From Bryobacteraceae bacterium (GTDB lineage Bacteria > Acidobacteriota > Terriglobia > Bryobacterales > Bryobacteraceae): DNA of 41,919 nt. The position numbers were made by a program, and so were the translations under genes. The stretch lies in assembly GCA_023511855.1 (NCBI GenBank), contig JAIMAR010000008.1, forward strand, positions 1 to 41,919, read 5' to 3'. Below, one piece after another: positions 7,940 to 38,679 of the stretch. How positions within the stretch are numbered: the first letter of the stretch is position 1; each line of letters opens with the position of its first letter. The notes under the pieces are model-generated. The model had not been told where the DNA came from. It did no database searches and worked only from the letters and a program-made list of their open reading frames with translations.

Positions 7940-9034
7940 ATGGCAGAAATCACCCGCCGGTCTGTAATGCAAGGGACCCTGGCCGGGCTGGCCGGCACTG
8001 GACTCAGCGCCAGCCTGCCCGTGTTGGCCGTGCCGCGGCAACCGGCTAAGGTTGGCTTTAAGCTCTGTGAACTTTTCGGCAGCCCCACCAGCAACGACGT
8101 CGTCATCGCCAAGCAACTCGGCGTGAACCACGTCATCACGGGTATGGGCTTTGGCCGCGTGCGGAAAGAACAGTACTTGGAGGTCGCCCAGAAGACCAAA
8201 GAAGCCTGGGAGGCGGCCGGAATGACCATCGCCGGAGTCGAGGGCCATCCGGTGCCGTTCGAAAATCTGAAAGCCGGCACGCCCGGCGCCGACGAAGAGA
8301 TCGAGAACACCAAGTGGGCCATTGAAGCTCTCAGCAAAGTCGGCATCGATATGATCTGCTACAACTTCATGGCCGGCCTGGGCTGGACACGCACCAACAC
8401 CCGCGTGCCGCTGCGCGGCGGCGCGCTTACCAGCGAGTTTGACGCCACGGCGCCCCAGATGCAGCAGCCCACGCGCTTCGGCGAGATCAGCGAAGAGAAG
8501 ATGTGGGCCAACATCACCAAGTTCCTCAAGGAGGTCATCCCGGTCGCGGAAAAGTTCAAGGTCAAAATGGCCCTGCATCCCGACGATCCGCCACTGAGCC
8601 CGCTGCGCGGCGTGGCCCGCATTATCACCAGCGCCCGCAACTACCGGCGGATCTTCGAGATCGCTCCCAGTCCGTACAACGGAGTGACCTTCTGCCAAGC
8701 CAACTTTAAGTTAATGGGCGAGGACATCTTCGCGCTGGCCAAGGAGTGGCTCCAGAAAAAGAAGATCTTCTTCGTTCATTTCCGCGACGTGGAAGGGACT
8801 AAGACCAAATTCCACGAGACCTTCCATGACGACGGCCCCACGGATATGGCCAAGATGCTGGAGGTGTACAGCAAGAACGGCTTCGACGGCCCGATCCGCC
8901 CGGACCATGCGCCCGCGCTGGCCGTAGACAACGTGGGCGAGCGCGGCTCGACCGGCTATACCATCGGCGGGAAAATCTTCGCCTTCGGCTACATGAAGGG
9001 CATCATGGACGCGCTCCATCTGCCCTATGCCTGA
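7940..9034 (+). CDS. mannonate dehydratase (UxuA) family protein with Tat-like signal
   Basis: A 364-residue TIM-barrel enzyme. It shows UxuA hallmarks: [21 protein letters not shown] (His213), TFCQAN (Cys252, likely metal ligand), VHFRDVEG (His280), FHETFHDDG (His296) and GPIRPDHAP. UxuA dehydrates D-mannonate to 2-keto-3-deoxygluconate with Mn/Fe. The first 30 residues are unusual for Uxu[18 protein letters not shown] looks like a Tat signal, implying a periplasmic enzyme or a non-canonical substrate. The start is fixed by AGGAGG six bases before the ATG. A paralogue with the same architecture lies at 17047-18123. A sugar-phosphate isomerase/epimerase-like activity is the alternative. Confidence 0.82.
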
Positions 9035-9077
9035 TGGCACGCCTCGGCTGGACGGCCTTCCGCGCATGCGATATCCA

Positions 9078-9110
9078 ACGGGCGGCTGGCCAGGGCCGCC
9101 GCCCGTTTTG
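9078..9110 (+). terminator. Rho-independent terminator after the UxuA-like gene
   Basis: A perfect 9-bp stem, ACGGGCGGC at 9078-9086 and GCCGCCCGT at 9098-9106, encloses an 11-base loop and runs into TTT. It sits 44 bases after the UxuA-like stop and 30 bases before metX. It would separate the two transcripts unless metX is read through; an attenuator role for metX is possible but unsupported. Confidence 0.65.
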
Positions 9111-9135
9111 TTACGATGGAATTCTCCCGCGATCC

Positions 9136-10248
9136 ATGATTGTCGCCACGCAGTTTGTCCGGTTTGACTCCTTGCCGCTCGACTGCGGTGCTACACTCGC
9201 GCCGGTGGACGTCGCCTACGAGACCTACGGCACGCTCAACGAGAGCCGCTCCAACGCCATCCTCATCCTCCACGCGCTCACAGGTGACGCCCATGCGGCC
9301 GGCATCAGCCGGGAAACGGGCAAGCCCGGCTGGTGGGACAACTCGATCGGCCCCGGCAAGGCTTTTGATACCGACAAGTACTTCATCATTTGTTCCAACG
9401 TGCTGGGCGGCTGCCGCGGCACCACCGGTCCGCCTTCGATCAATCCGGCCACCGGCCGCCCGTATGCCATGTCGTTCCCGGTGATCACCATCGCAGACAT
9501 GGTCCGGCTTCAGAAGAAGCTGATCGATCATCTCGGCATCCCGCGTTTGCTGGCGGTGGCCGGCGGTTCGATGGGCGGAATGCAGGCTCTTCAATGGGCG
9601 GCCGACTATCCCGATTCGGTTGCCGCGGCGATCCCGATTGCCACCACATGGCGTCACAGCGCCCAGCAGATCGCCTTCAACGAGGTCGGCCGCCAAGCCA
9701 TCATGGCCGACCCGGACTGGAATCAGGGCGACTATTACGACTCGAAGCCCCCCGCGCGCGGCCTGGCGATTGCGCGCATGATCGGCCACATCACGTACAT
9801 GAGCGACGAGTCCATGCGCGAGAAGTTCGGCCGCCGCCTGCGGGATAAAGACAAGTACGGTTTCGATTTCTCCATCGATTTCGAAGTCGAGAGCTACCTG
9901 CGCTACCGCGGCGCGCAGTTCGTCGACCGCTTCGACGCCAACTCCTATCTGTACATCACCAAGGCTCTGGACTATTTCGACTTGACCAACGGAGGCGGAT
10001 CGCTGGCCGACGTGCTCGGACAGACCACCGCCCGCTTCCTGGTGATCAGCTTCACCTCCGACTGGCTCTATCCGAGCTACCAGTCTTTAGAGATCGTGCG
10101 CGCCCTGCGCAGTCGCAACCGCGACGTCACCTACTGCGAGCTCTCCTCCAACTACGGCCACGACGCCTTCCTGGTCGACATCAGCGAGCAGACGGAAGTC
10201 ATCCGGAGCTTCTTGGCCAGCACCTACCGGGAGAAAGCCGCCGCATGA
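9136..10248 (+). CDS. metX: homoserine O-acetyltransferase MetX
   Basis: A 370-residue alpha/beta-hydrolase that acetylates L-homoserine with acetyl-CoA, committing it to methionine synthesis. The nucleophile elbow GGSMGG places Ser145. TSDWLYP supplies the probable catalytic Asp309, and YGHDAFL the catalytic His342. [12 protein letters not shown] and [12 protein letters not shown] are characteristic MetX segments. ATG 9136 is chosen because conserved sequence ([11 protein letters not shown]) begins right after it; a longer frame from 9034 would run through the terminator hairpin and overlap the preceding stop codon. Its stop overlaps the metW start as ATGA, indicating translational coupling. 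MetX and succinyl-specific paralogues are hard to separate by eye. Confidence 0.95.
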
Positions 10249-10874
10249 GTTCGGTTCTGGAAGAGCGCAAGAAGACCTCCGTCCGCGAGATTCTGGGCCG
10301 GAGCGATTACGCCATCATCAGCAGCCTGGTGGAGCCCGGGACCAAGGTCCTCGACCTGGGTTGCGGCGACGGCGAACTGCTGGCCTGGCTGGTGGAAAAC
10401 AAGGGCGTGGAGGCCCGCGGCATCGAGATCAACCGCGCCCGGGTTCAGAAGGCCATCGCCCGCGGCGTCACCGTTTTTCAAGGCGACATCGACGAGGGCC
10501 TGGCCGACATTCCGGACCAGTCGTTCGACTATGTCATCTTGAGCCAGACGCTCCAGGAAACCCGGCACCCGCTGAGGGTCCTTCAGGAAATGCTGCGGGT
10601 GGGACGGCACGCCATCGTGACCTTCCCCAATTTTGGGCACTGGTCGGTGCGCCTCTCGCACCTGTTCAGCGGGCGCGCGCCCCGCACGCGCCTGTTCCCT
10701 TACGAGTGGTACGACTCGCCCAACATTCACTTCCTGACGGTCAAGGACTTTGAGGACCTGGCGCGGGCGCAGGGCTGGACCATCGAGCGGCGCATCTTTT
10801 TGGCCGGCCATCACATGGGCCGCTTCCTGGCGAACCTCATGGCCGAGACCGCGGTGTTCATGCTGAGGCGCTGA
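10245..10874 (+). CDS. metW: methionine biosynthesis protein MetW
   Basis: A 209-residue class I SAM-dependent methyltransferase-fold protein. Motif I is [12 protein letters not shown] near residue 37. The MetW-specific segments [22 protein letters not shown] and [12 protein letters not shown] are all present. MetW is nearly always paired with MetX and is reported to support its acyltransferase activity. Here the two overlap by four bases (ATGA), so they form one operon. Length matches the family. Confidence 0.95.
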
Positions 10875-34680: not shown

Positions 34681-35505
34681 CTACCGGGCAGCCCCGGCGG
34701 CGGACTCGGGAGGCGGCTCCAGTTTGCCCTCCCGGTAGGCGCGGAGGTACTCGACACAGTACTCGTCCCGGCCGAGCAGCGCCTCGGCGGCGAAAATGCA
34801 GGCCATGAGCCGGCGGTCGCAGGGATCGGCGATTGCGGCATCCAGACCCCGCGACATCAGCAACACCAGGAAGACCTCGTTGAGCAGCTTACGGCAGGGT
34901 AAGCCGAAAGAAACGTTGCTGAGGCCCACGCTGGTGTGAACTCCGGGGTAGCGGGCGCAGATTTGTCCTACGGCCTCGGCCACGAAGCGGCCGTGATCGG
35001 GTCCGGTGCTCACCGGCAGCACGCAGGGATCGACGTAGATGTCATCGAGGGCGACGCCGGCGGCGGTCAAACGGTCCACCAAACGGGCGGCGGTCTCCAG
35101 GCGGTCCTCCAGGCGGCTGGGCGGGCCGGCCGCGCCCATGCACAGGGCGATTACTTTCGTGCCGAACTCCTTGACCAGCGGAAGCACGGCGTCGAAGCGC
35201 TCCGGCTCGTCGTTGATGGAGTTGATCATCGGGCGTTGTTTGCACAAAGGAAGGGCGCGGCGCAAGGCCAGCGGGTCGGAGCTATCCAAACACAATGGAA
35301 GATCCACGGCTTGCTGCACGGTTTCGACGAGCCAGCACAAGACTTCGGGCTCGCGGCCGGGGATGCCGCCGTTGACATCGAGCATTTGGGCGCCGGCCTC
35401 GGCTTGCCGCCGGGCGACATCCTGGATATAGGCGGCATCGTGGCTTTCGACCGCGGTGCGGATCCGCTTGCGAGTGCTATTGATCAGTTCACCGATGAGA
35501 AACAT
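34681..35505 (-). CDS. pterin-binding methyltetrahydrofolate:corrinoid methyltransferase
   Basis: A 274-residue TIM barrel of the dihydropteroate synthase-like pterin-binding family, equivalent to the methyl-THF domain of MetH or to AcsE. Motifs: IGELINSTRKRIRTAVE, AGAQMLDVNGGIPGREP, LPLCLDSSDPLALRRAL, MINSINDEPERF, IALCMGAAGPP, DDIYVDPCVLPVST, GVHTSVGLSNVSFGLPCRKLLNEVFL. It would move the methyl group of methyl-THF to the corrinoid protein encoded at 37151. ATG 35505 is chosen because AGGAG lies six bases upstream and family homology begins there. It overlaps the end of the metF-metV gene by 17 bases, so the two are cotranscribed and coupled. Confidence 0.9.
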   Translation of the reverse strand: MFLIGELINSTRKRIRTAVESHDAAYIQDVARRQAEAGAQMLDVNGGIPGREPEVLCWLVETVQQAVDLPLCLDSSDPLALRRALPLCKQRPMINSINDEPERFDAVLPLVKEFGTKVIALCMGAAGPPSRLEDRLETAARLVDRLTAAGVALDDIYVDPCVLPVSTGPDHGRFVAEAVGQICARYPGVHTSVGLSNVSFGLPCRKLLNEVFLVLLMSRGLDAAIADPCDRRLMACIFAAEALLGRDEYCVEYLRAYREGKLEPPPESAAGAAR

Positions 35506-37042
35506 CTGAGTCTCCTGAGATGGGCGAGAGGGTCTGGCGGCGGCTGAGGTTATCGCGGCCGGCAAACCGGTTCACCAGCGAATTTGAGCCGTCCAGGCGC
35601 CAGTCTCTCGGGGGAATGAGAATGCGGGCGAAGCGGCGCGGGTCTTGGCCCAGCGCCAGCGAGGCCTCATAGACACGGTTCCAGAGGCAAGGGATTCCGG
35701 GGCGGGCTTCGCAAGAGCCATCGGGGCGGGAACCGCCGCAGGGGCCGTTGCGGAGCTGCTTGTAGCAGCCGCTGACCGAGCAGCCGGCGTAGCCGAGGTA
35801 GTCCTGGATGCAGTCGCCGCAGCTCATGCAGCCGAACAATGCCTTGCGGTACCAGACGGAGGGGGCCAGCGCGGCCCGGCACAGGGAAGCCATCCAGGGG
35901 GCGGCGCCGTTGGCCAGATGCTTTTGAAAAAAGCGCGCGCCGGCGGAGCCCTCGGCGATACAGAGCCGGTGGGCGAGCGCCGACAGCCGCTGCACCCAAG
36001 AGGCCTTCGGCCGCTCCAGCGCGTTCTGGAACGGTCCACTGCCGTCGCTGAGACCGTCGGGGCGTTTAGGAAACAGATAGAACTGCCCAGCGGACTCGAA
36101 GGTCAGCTCGTCCAGCCGCGACCGCCAGCCGGCGCCGATTTCCATGGAGCGATCGACAATGCCGGCGATGTCGCCGTGGGTCAGGCCGAATCCGCCGACG
36201 TGCGCTCCGGCGAACCCGAGACCCCGGGCAGCGGCCACCATCAGCGCCGCCCGCTCCAGCCGCTGCGGCTTCTTCTCCGTTTCCAGGCGGCGGAGCAGAT
36301 CCGGCGGCATGACGCAGCCGGCCAGCTCCCCGCTTTGCATCATGCGGGCGATGGCCGCCGTGGGGACATAGACGTTCGCCAGCACCGGGATGTGGTCTAG
36401 CCCCACGCGGACCATGTACTGCTTCAGCTCGTAGAGTTTCCGCAGGTCGTACCCGACCTGAGTGATGAGGAAACGCGCGCCGGCCGCGATCTTCAGCTCC
36501 ATCTTGTAGAGCTGCATCACCAGATCGGGTTCGCGGACCTTGAAGGGATTGACCACGGCGCCGGGGAAGAACTCATACGGGGCAAGACGCACGCTGCGCG
36601 TGCCGAGCTGATAGGAAATCCCTTTTTGAAACTCCCGAATGAGCCAAAGGATCTGAACTGAGTCCAGGTCGTGGACCGGTTTGCCTGGTCCCAGAAAGCC
36701 GTCCTTTTGGGCGTCGCCGGTGAGCGCCAATAAATCCCGCACGCCGAGCCGCGCCAAGTGGTGCAGGCGGCCTTCCAGATACGCGCGGTTTACGTCCTTG
36801 CCGGAAAGGTGTGCGATGGGGACCAGGCCGCGCTCGAGAACGGCGGAGGCAAAGGACTCCGGGGGCAAGGCGGGGTTGCCGCCGGGCAAATCGGTGAGGC
36901 TGAGGAAGCGGATGCCCTCGGGCTCGCGCGCCGCCTCGTCCAGAAAGGCCTGGACTTCGGCGGTGGTATGGTCGCGTCCCAGCACGAGCTCGGCGGAACA
37001 AACGAACTCGCCCGCCTCCAAAGCTGCTTGAAAGGAGTCCAT
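35489..37042 (-). CDS. metF: methylenetetrahydrofolate reductase fused to MetV-type cysteine-rich domain
   Basis: A 517-residue protein. Residues about 1-300 form the MetF flavin barrel (FVCSAELVLGRDHTTAEV, LLALTGDAQKDG, GAVVNPF, KIAAGARFLITQVGYD, IPVLANVYV, GVHVGGFG-like). The C-terminal 180 residues carry a MetV-like domain with cysteines at 405, 408, 411, 421, 426, 435, 444 and 452 (CMSCGDC, CSVSGCYKQLRNGPCGG), suited to binding Fe-S or zinc. In acetogens MetF and MetV are separate partners; here they are one chain. It would reduce methylene-THF to methyl-THF, possibly with an electron donor other than NADH. It is divergent from the corrinoid protein gene with a 108-base gap. Confidence 0.9.
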   Translation of the reverse strand: MDSFQAALEAGEFVCSAELVLGRDHTTAEVQAFLDEAAREPEGIRFLSLTDLPGGNPALPPESFASAVLERGLVPIAHLSGKDVNRAYLEGRLHHLARLGVRDLLALTGDAQKDGFLGPGKPVHDLDSVQILWLIREFQKGISYQLGTRSVRLAPYEFFPGAVVNPFKVREPDLVMQLYKMELKIAAGARFLITQVGYDLRKLYELKQYMVRVGLDHIPVLANVYVPTAAIARMMQSGELAGCVMPPDLLRRLETEKKPQRLERAALMVAAARGLGFAGAHVGGFGLTHGDIAGIVDRSMEIGAGWRSRLDELTFESAGQFYLFPKRPDGLSDGSGPFQNALERPKASWVQRLSALAHRLCIAEGSAGARFFQKHLANGAAPWMASLCRAALAPSVWYRKALFGCMSCGDCIQDYLGYAGCSVSGCYKQLRNGPCGGSRPDGSCEARPGIPCLWNRVYEASLALGQDPRRFARILIPPRDWRLDGSNSLVNRFAGRDNLSRRQTLSPISGDSDVSHR

Positions 37043-37150
37043 CTAAGCCGGCTCCAGCAAAGGAACCATGATAACTCGGGCTAAGCCCGAATGGGACCTT
37101 TTCCTCTGGTAGGATGAAAGATCCAAGCAAGCCCAGACGAGGGAAGGGTG
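37043..37150. promoter_or_regulatory. divergent control region of the one-carbon/methionine locus
   Basis: The 108 bases between the metF-metV start and the corrinoid protein start must hold both promoters. A 6-bp dyad, TCGGGC (37076-37081), TAA, GCCCGA (37085-37090), lies near the centre and could be an operator. No cobalamin or SAM riboswitch fits in so short a space, and no clear -35/-10 pair was recognised. Confidence 0.35.
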
Positions 37151-37786
37151 ATGGCGGAGCTGAACAAACTGTATGAGGCGGTATTAAACGGCGATGCAAA
37201 GACGGCCGCGGCCGTAACAAAGGAGGCGCTGGCGGAAGGCGTTCCTCCGATCGATCTGGTGAACCAGTACATGGTGCCGGCCATGGACGAAGTGGGCCGC
37301 CGCTACGAATGCGAGGAGTACTTTGTGCCGGAGCTGCTATTGGCGGCGCGGGCGATGAAGGCTTCGATGGATTTGATCCGGCCGCTGCTGGCGGCGAGCG
37401 GAGCGCAGCCGGCCGGGCGCGTGGTGATCGGCACGGTAAAGGGCGATCTGCACGACATTGGCAAGAACCTGGTGGCGGCGCTGCTGGAGGGCGGCGGCTT
37501 CGAGGTGATCGACTTGGGCGCGGACGTGCCGCCGGAGAAGTTCGTGCGGGCGGTTGAGGAACGGCAAGCCAACATCGTCTGCCTGTCGGCGCTGCTGACG
37601 GTGACGATGCCGGCGATGCGGACTACGATTGAAACGCTCAAGGAGGCGGGCGTGCGGGACAAGGTGAAAGTCTTGGTCGGAGGCGCGCCGGTGACGCAGA
37701 AGTACGCCGAGGAGATCGGGGCCGACGGCTACGGGGAGAACGCCAGCGAGGCGGTGACTTTGGCGCGGCGTCTGGTGGCGCAATGA
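37151..37786 (+). CDS. corrinoid (cobalamin-binding) methyl-carrier protein
   Basis: A 211-residue protein. Residues 1-85 are the four-helix cap domain (MDEVGRRYECEEYFVPELLLAARAMK). Residues 88-211 are the B12-binding Rossmann domain with the base-off motif DLHDIG (Asp99, His101, Gly104), then the GADVPPEKFV, LSALLTVTMPAM and GGAPVTQKYAEEIGADGY segments. This equals the cobalamin module of MetH and the MtbC/MtmC-type methyltransferase corrinoid proteins; His101 would ligate cobalt. The start is ATG 37151, with a GTG immediately before it as alternative; GAGGGAAGG precedes both. Its stop overlaps the next gene as ATGA, so the two are translationally coupled. Confidence 0.93.
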   Translation: MAELNKLYEAVLNGDAKTAAAVTKEALAEGVPPIDLVNQYMVPAMDEVGRRYECEEYFVPELLLAARAMKASMDLIRPLLAASGAQPAGRVVIGTVKGDLHDIGKNLVAALLEGGGFEVIDLGADVPPEKFVRAVEERQANIVCLSALLTVTMPAMRTTIETLKEAGVRDKVKVLVGGAPVTQKYAEEIGADGYGENASEAVTLARRLVAQ

Positions 37787-38679
37787 ACCCGGTCTTCGAA
37801 AGGCTGCTGGCGAACGGCCCGGTGGTCACCGACGGCGCCTGGGGCACGATGTTCTTGGCGATGGGCCTGCGGGCAGGCGAGATCGGCGACCTATGGAACC
37901 TGACTCACCCGGAGCGGGTGGAGGCCGTGCCCCGCGCGTATGTGGAAGCAGGCAGCCAGGTGATTCTGACCAACACGTTCTTGTCGAACCGGATCACGCT
38001 GGCGGCGCACGGACTGGCGGATCGGTTGGAGGAGCTGAACCGGACCGGAGTGGAGATTTCCCGGCGCGCCGCCGGCGGACGCGCCGCGGTGTTCGGATCG
38101 ATCGGTCCGACGGGCAAGCTGCTGGTGACGGGAGAGGTCACGGAGACCGAGCTGGAGGAGACCTACCGCGAGCAGACGCGAATTCTGGCCGAGGCCGGCG
38201 CGGAAGCCATCATCCTCGAGACGATGGGGGATCTGGGCGAGGCGGTCTGCGCGGTGCGGGCATCGCGCGAGACGGGCCTTCCGGTGGTGGCCTGCATGGC
38301 CTACTCCAGCGGTAGGAACAAAGACCGCACCATGATGGGCGTGACGCCGGAGCAAGCCGCGGAAGCGCTAACCGAAGCCGGTGCAGACGTCATCGGGGCC
38401 AACTGCGGGCAGGGCATCGACGGGTACATCGAGATCTGCCGGCGCCTGCGCGCGGCGACGGACCGCCCGTTGTGGATCAAGCCCAACGCCGGGCTGCCGG
38501 AACTGGTGGAAGGCCGGCCGGTTTATCGCACATCACCCGAGGAGTTCGCCGCCAAGACCGTGGAGCTTCTGGAGGCCGGGGCGCATTTTGTAGGCGGATG
38601 CTGCGGGACCACGCCGGAGTTTATCCGTCAGGTAGCGGCCACAGTGAAGCAGTGGAAAGCACGGAAAAACGCCGGCTGA
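37783..38679 (+). CDS. homocysteine S-methyltransferase (stand-alone MetH N-terminal domain)
   Basis: A 298-residue zinc-dependent barrel. It begins VVTDGAWGTMFLAMGL, then LTNTFLSNRITLAAHG, GSIGPTGKLL, ILETMGDLGEA. The zinc cysteines are Cys208 (GANCGQG) and Cys273/Cys274 (GGCCGTTPEF). This matches the homocysteine module of MetH, which methylates homocysteine from methylcobalamin; BHMT/MmuM-type enzymes share the fold but use betaine or S-methylmethionine. Coupling by ATGA to the corrinoid protein argues for a methylcobalamin donor. Together with 34681-37042 the locus supplies all methyl-transfer modules of methionine synthase on separate chains. Confidence 0.92.
   Translation: MNPVFERLLANGPVVTDGAWGTMFLAMGLRAGEIGDLWNLTHPERVEAVPRAYVEAGSQVILTNTFLSNRITLAAHGLADRLEELNRTGVEISRRAAGGRAAVFGSIGPTGKLLVTGEVTETELEETYREQTRILAEAGAEAIILETMGDLGEAVCAVRASRETGLPVVACMAYSSGRNKDRTMMGVTPEQAAEALTEAGADVIGANCGQGIDGYIEICRRLRAATDRPLWIKPNAGLPELVEGRPVYRTSPEEFAAKTVELLEAGAHFVGGCCGTTPEFIRQVAATVKQWKARKNAG

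Follow-up and report, generated by a model that had tools for sequence, protein, structure and literature searches.

Which pathway is served by a B12-dependent methyl-transfer machine whose parts are encoded by separate, neighbouring genes? The question is raised by the genome of an uncultured soil-type acidobacterium (Bryobacteraceae bacterium, assembly GCA_023511855.1), in which a four-gene block lies at 34681–38679 of contig JAIMAR010000008.1; the whole stretch of 41,919 nucleotides analysed is called the window here. The genes encode a pterin-dependent methyltransferase (MeTr), a reductase (MetFV), a corrinoid protein (Corr) and a homocysteine S-methyltransferase (HcyS). An earlier note, made from the sequence alone, interpreted them as a disassembled MetH methionine synthase, and gave as an alternative a demethylase-like one-carbon (C1) system using homocysteine as acceptor. 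Judged from gene content and sequence comparison, the four genes probably belong to a system that removes methyl groups by way of a corrinoid protein and assimilates them, homocysteine and tetrahydrofolate (THF) being the acceptors. The alternative is thus the best supported, by a cluster of UroD, RACo and DUF1638 genes around the orthologues in relatives and by a complete MetH in the same genome.

Four modules on separate chains

On the minus strand, MeTr (34681–35505; 274 aa) is an MtgA/AcsE-like methyl-THF:corrinoid protein methyltransferase by Pfam/NCBIfam profiles and PDB matches. It contains Pterin_bind and scores 321 bits against PRK07535 (methyl-THF:corrinoid/FeS methyltransferase; cut-off 259), and its start is the ATG at 35505, preceded by AGGAG. 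MetFV (35489–37042, minus strand; 517 aa) combines a methylene-THF reductase and a Cys-rich, MetV-like C-terminal domain in one chain, with Pfam/NCBIfam matches to MTHFR (66.8 bits) and, in the MetV-like tail, to DUF5981 (“MTHFR C-terminal”, 63.9 bits). On the plus strand, Corr (37148–37786; B12-binding and B12-binding_2) is a stand-alone corrinoid protein, the methyl carrier, with a base-off DLHDIG motif and a likely start at the ATG at 37151, and HcyS (37783–38679; S-methyl_trans, 220 bits) is a stand-alone zinc homocysteine S-methyltransferase. The identities proposed in the earlier note are all confirmed by these profiles, and the overlaps it described are exact: 17 bp between MeTr and MetFV (35489–35505) and 4 bp, ATGA, between Corr and HcyS (37783–37786). 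The 105 bp that separate the divergent metFV and corrinoid genes (37043–37147) have no Rfam match, and no cobalamin riboswitch was found by Rfam in the window, on the two other contigs discussed below (C35 and C233) or in the relatives examined.

The modules of a split methionine synthase (PF02574, PF00809 and PF02607/PF02310) are present as three separate genes, and no chain of the block combines homocysteine, pterin, B12 and AdoMet-activation domains as a canonical MetH does. The activation domain PF02965 is missing from all four genes, as the earlier note had observed.

Active-site residues are invariant among orthologues: Asp74/Asn95/Asp159/Asn197 in MeTr, at positions that align with AcsE/MtgA; Asp99-X-His101 (DxHxxG) and Ser146 in Corr; eight Cys in the MetV-like tail of MetFV; and Cys208/Cys273/Cys274, Asp17 and Glu146 in HcyS, aligned with the homocysteine module of MetH. 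By analogy with their families, residues among these would be ligands of zinc, homocysteine or pterin. HcyS is the only module closest to MetH, with the homocysteine domain of T. maritima MetH as its best PDB match. Zinc-thiol chemistry would also permit another thiol, e.g. sulfide or a low-molecular-weight thiol, as the acceptor of HcyS, which would make the cluster a methyl-disposal route, and the clusters of relatives often include another UroD protein, whose site is His-Cys-Cys (MtaA-like). Both this PDB match and the invariance of Asp17, Glu146 and the three zinc Cys argue against such an acceptor, which we regard as improbable.

The other two corrinoid-related modules are different. MeTr scores highest against 4o0q (213 bits), the MtgA of Desulfitobacterium, deposited under the title DHPS, followed by AcsE (178–187 bits) and the MetH folate domains (about 115 bits), while the top matches of Corr are the methylotrophic corrinoid proteins 7xcn/1y80, above the MetH modules. 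Since MeTr and Corr are nearer to demethylase-type structures than to MetH modules, these matches count for demethylation. Moreover, 4O1E and 4O1F, companion entries of 4o0q, serve as folate complexes of a methyltransferase II (MT II; 2026, PMC13222342).

A complete MetH in the same genome

The search for a full-length metH, which the earlier note had proposed as a check, gave a result that goes against its main interpretation. Contig C233 encodes a MetH of 1187 aa (L009:3027-6590, plus strand) with all five Pfam domains, including PF02965, and 1199 bits against TIGR02082 (cut-off 1011); the activation domain sought elsewhere in the genome was seen within this protein. This MetH is most likely native rather than a binning error, because its orthologue in the Bryobacterales isolate SJ723 is 77% identical over the full length and a MetH relative occurs in 22 of 27 cluster-bearing genomes. 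No MetE was found in the genome. An HcyS-MTHFR fusion of PRK08645 type (766 bits) is encoded on contig C331 (L010:7260-9296, minus strand), and together with MetH and the split HcyS of the window it accounts for the three homocysteine S-methyltransferase domains in the genome.

In quick trees of Corr and HcyS (SH-aLRT support only), the window proteins fall in the group of the UroD clusters, apart from the MetH domains, on long and fully supported branches. A recent fission of the local MetH is rejected on this separation; the four-gene block did not arise by breaking up that enzyme. Nor is it the main methionine synthase of the cell. From the proposal of a disassembled MetH working as methionine synthase, the separate modules and the predicted methyl transfer to homocysteine stand, and against the rest is the complete MetH. 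A reading of the locus as no more than a MetH in pieces is not supported, given this enzyme, the trees and the UroD methyltransferase beside Corr-HcyS in relatives. The two observations that the earlier note said would overturn its claim have both been made, namely a MetH elsewhere in the genome and a methyltransferase outside the window, though the latter neighbours these genes in relatives, whereas in this genome it is not linked to them.

Putative donor enzymes and reactivases beside the orthologues

To describe the wider cluster, HcyS orthologues were gathered from 399 genomes of the class and from a named genome collection, and the neighbouring DNA of their loci was scanned with reference proteins (40 loci in the class-wide set and 80 in the named set). 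A recurrent set was found, which consists of one or two copies of UroD1 (a UroD-family protein of about 420 residues), Corr, optional MetFV and MeTr, HcyS, DUF1638, UroD2 (an MtaA-like UroD protein of about 340 residues) and a RACo/RamA-type reactivase. Among the 40 class-wide loci, a corrinoid gene lies near HcyS in 30, DUF1638 in 26, RACo in 22, a second UroD protein in 20, UroD1 in 11, MeTr in 6 and MetFV in 5. A further 80 loci, drawn from several phyla, include 37 with Corr directly upstream of HcyS, and the system is distributed over Acidobacteriota, Planctomycetota, Verrucomicrobiota and other phyla. Clustering of the unidentified neighbour genes gave no family shared by more than 3 of the 80 named loci.

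The arrangement varies around this set. For example, L104 contains Corr-MetFV-MeTr-HcyS-DUF1638-RACo, collinear on one strand, L094 contains Corr-MetFV-MeTr-HcyS-RACo, and L093 contains MetFV-MeTr-HcyS-DUF1638-RACo-Corr-UroD1-UroD1. Three loci from the family of the window itself (L108, L110 and L113) share the order UroD1-Corr-HcyS-DUF1638-UroD2-RACo, and a UroD gene directly precedes Corr-HcyS in these and in L041, L150 and L168. MtaB, the methanol:corrinoid methyltransferase (about 550 bits, Pfam), adjoins HcyS in L098 (10605-12002) and L100 (10557-12068), which suggests methanol as the donor in these two clusters. A transporter of the formate/nitrite family stands beside MeTr within the cluster in L096 (3448-4305) and L097 (10409-11281), hinting that the oxidised C1 unit may exit as formate there. 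In other acidobacterial families, an MTTB-Corr-HcyS-RACo cluster (L045, L046, L054 and L056) is the MTTB-type counterpart. The donor methyltransferases beside Corr and HcyS, MtaB among them, and the transporter point to methyl catabolism together with assimilation.

In the window genome the cluster is split in two: the divergent four-gene block, and UroD1-DUF1638-RACo on contig C35 (L008:9835-13443, minus strand). The same two pieces occur on separate contigs of SJ723 (L137 and L231). The divergent block of SJ723 is identical in layout, so the arrangement that the earlier note wished to see compared across Bryobacterales is conserved there, with the same 17-bp and 4-bp overlaps; protein identity is 73% for MeTr, 63% for MetFV, 76% for Corr and 67% for HcyS, and in the second piece 75% for UroD1, 63% for DUF1638 and 60% for RACo. 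DNA similarity between the two blocks stops close to the block borders, indicating that the four-gene block itself is the conserved unit. A decayed or fortuitous juxtaposition with no joint function might be suspected from the corrinoid and UroD parts lying on different contigs here; given intact frames, conserved active sites and identical layout and overlaps in a genome whose proteins are only 63–76% identical, it is extremely unlikely.

UroD1 has no sequence match in the PDB, either as a single sequence or as a 16-row profile. The predicted model of an orthologue (L149:8061-9320, 70% identical; pLDDT 87.5) matches MtaA and HemE (uroporphyrinogen decarboxylases) over the whole chain with Z of 22–24, and by this model the C35 protein is a candidate methyltransferase I (MT I) of the UroD superfamily. 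Zinc in MtaA-type thiol methyltransferases is bound by His-Cys-Cys, which UroD2 retains where it is present. The metal motif of UroD1 is invariant as His311-X-Cys313...His398, in which His398 was equated with the last Cys by eye alignment on the following T-P-x-x-N motif, and planctomycete homologues have His-X-Asp...His. According to a rule quoted in PMC10418091, enzymes in which Cys ligands are replaced typically act on O-methyl and not on S-methyl groups; UroD1 is therefore probably not a thiol enzyme, and methoxylated compounds would be its most likely donors. In the window genome, no MtaA-like His-Cys-Cys UroD protein was seen next to Corr or RACo, and MTTB (PF06253) and MtaB, sought there as donor enzymes, were not found either. 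Two more UroD-related sequences were seen: a UroD-family gene on contig C79 (L132:1501-2508; 158 bits to URO-D), whose frame contains a single TAG owing to pseudogene decay or a sequencing error, and at the start of contig C166 a fragment of a second UroD1-like paralogue with HTCG and HNIQ motifs (L133:3-602). From the latter, the genome may have more than one donor enzyme.

The RACo protein on C35 contains Fer2, middle and ASKHA domains. The earlier note expected that a separate enzyme would be needed for reactivation and proposed a search for RamA/RACo-like proteins; this RACo, clustered with the same genes in relatives, agrees with that expectation. In Phaeobacter, genetic data show that the split methionine synthase requires both a DUF4445/RamA-like and a DUF1638 protein (Price et al. 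2018, PMC5764234). Both partners are encoded on C35, and both cluster with HcyS in relatives. In L100 (8907-10526, minus strand), HcyS and DUF1638 share one open frame of 540 aa with no interruption; if the two are indeed fused, DUF1638 would be tied to the homocysteine step.

Proposed route and known counterparts

In the proposed demethylation route, the candidate UroD1 (on C35 here, next to Corr-HcyS in relatives) would take a methyl group from a donor that is probably not a thiol and place it on the cobalt of Corr. The methylated Corr could then be used in two ways: by HcyS, which would transfer the methyl group to homocysteine and yield methionine, and by MeTr, which would transfer it to THF and yield methyl-THF, to be oxidised by MetFV to methylene-THF for C1 metabolism. 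Run in reverse, MeTr-Corr-HcyS would act as a split methionine synthase. Cob(II)alamin formed by accidental oxidation would be reduced by RACo, presumably with the DUF1638 protein.

Several observations weigh against this reading. MetFV and MeTr are present only in a minority of clusters; UroD1, itself without a counterpart in the PDB by sequence, and RACo are unlinked to the four genes in the window genome, their association being drawn from relatives and SJ723. Moreover, in family f71 a MetH match at E 1e-100 is lacking from four genomes whose clusters include MeTr and MetFV, i.e. G222 (L094), G284 (L093), G350 (L097) and G306 (L092), and the split modules may be their only methionine synthase. 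Five f71 genomes lack a MetH match, the fifth (G272) being without MeTr and MetFV, while G322 and G330 have both genes and a MetH match, partial in G330; these are draft genomes, and the numbers are too small to test.

Such genomes fit a dedicated split methionine synthase, in which the methyl group of methyl-THF, made by MetFV, would be passed by MeTr to Corr and by HcyS to homocysteine. In the window genome it would be an additional isozyme alongside MetH, or one used under certain conditions. All modules of the three-part Phaeobacter enzyme, as well as RACo/DUF4445 and DUF1638, are indeed present in the window genome (PMC5764234). Nevertheless, MetH is complete both here and in SJ723, most relatives pair Corr-HcyS with UroD or MtaB without MeTr and MetFV, and MeTr resembles the demethylase MtgA more than MetH, which makes this isozyme unlikely, though clearly less so than another thiol acceptor.

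The Phaeobacter inhibens system (PMC5764234) is similar in its separate homocysteine, pterin and corrinoid modules, ASKHA/RACo-type reactivase and DUF1638 partner. However, P. inhibens has no PF02965 and its split enzyme is the methionine synthase, whereas the window genome has a complete MetH, and the cluster described here has UroD methyltransferases and a MetF fused to a MetV-like domain. In MtgBCDE of Ruegeria, roseobacters and other marine bacteria, a single corrinoid protein is shared by the demethylase, THF and homocysteine; metF2 is dedicated to the system, which also has RamA, DUF1638 and an MTTB-family donor enzyme for glycine betaine (2025, PMC12478193). The corrinoid hub linking methyl donor, THF and homocysteine, the dedicated MetF and the reactivation pair are shared, but the window system is not a member since the MTTB donor enzyme is absent and a UroD-family candidate is found instead.

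With the four-component O-demethylase/Cdm-type systems (Odm, Vdm, Mtv and CdmBCA; PMC13222342), the window genome shares a predicted UroD-fold MT I, a corrinoid protein, an MtgA-like, THF-specific MT II and a RACo-type activating enzyme; it adds HcyS, DUF1638 and MetFV, and UroD1 differs in having no sequence match among solved structures. Type 1 mlp gene clusters (PMC10418091) likewise have multiple UroD proteins, a corrinoid protein and a RACE reactivase, but their Mlps have His-Cys-Cys sites (S/Se methyl donors), unlike the His-Cys-His of UroD1, and they lack a THF methyltransferase; a pair like Mlp2 and Mlp3 with a His-Cys-Cys zinc site was not found near Corr or RACo in the window genome. 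In MetVF of acetogens, MetF is likewise combined with a MetV-type Cys-rich domain; here the two form a single chain, whose gene accompanies corrinoid methyltransferase genes. The system thus differs from its known counterparts in the UroD-type instead of MTTB-type donor enzyme, the fused MetF-MetV and the spread over several phyla. No description of UroD-Corr-HcyS-DUF1638-RACo clusters was found in the literature searched, which mostly excludes subscription journals, and no paper on Bryobacter and cobalamin-dependent methyltransferases was found in that search.

More generally, and more tentatively, transfer from a UroD demethylase through Corr to homocysteine might be a widespread folate-independent route by which environmental, perhaps methoxy, methyl groups enter methionine, with the RACo/DUF1638 pair and an optional MeTr/MetF-MetV folate branch. 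Acidobacteriota of Stordalen Mire express genes for the demethylation of methanol and methoxy compounds (PMC10805028), and the isolate bog_367 (L206) is among the cluster-bearing genomes. Such a route would connect demethylation by B12 enzymes with the making of methionine in uncultured phyla that are abundant in soil, peat and freshwater. It would also carry the MtgBCDE idea, in which catabolism and methionine synthesis share one corrinoid protein, beyond MTTB-type donor enzymes to those of UroD type. The recurrent DUF1638-RACo pair and the L100 frame also offer a handle on DUF1638, a domain of unknown function. Routine annotation would probably label HcyS as “methionine synthase” or “betaine-homocysteine methyltransferase”, and UroD1 as “uroporphyrinogen decarboxylase”.

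Elsewhere in the window, about 24 kb from the block, genes similar by eye to metX (homoserine O-acetyltransferase) and metW are located at 9034-10874 on the plus strand, with a 4-bp overlap.

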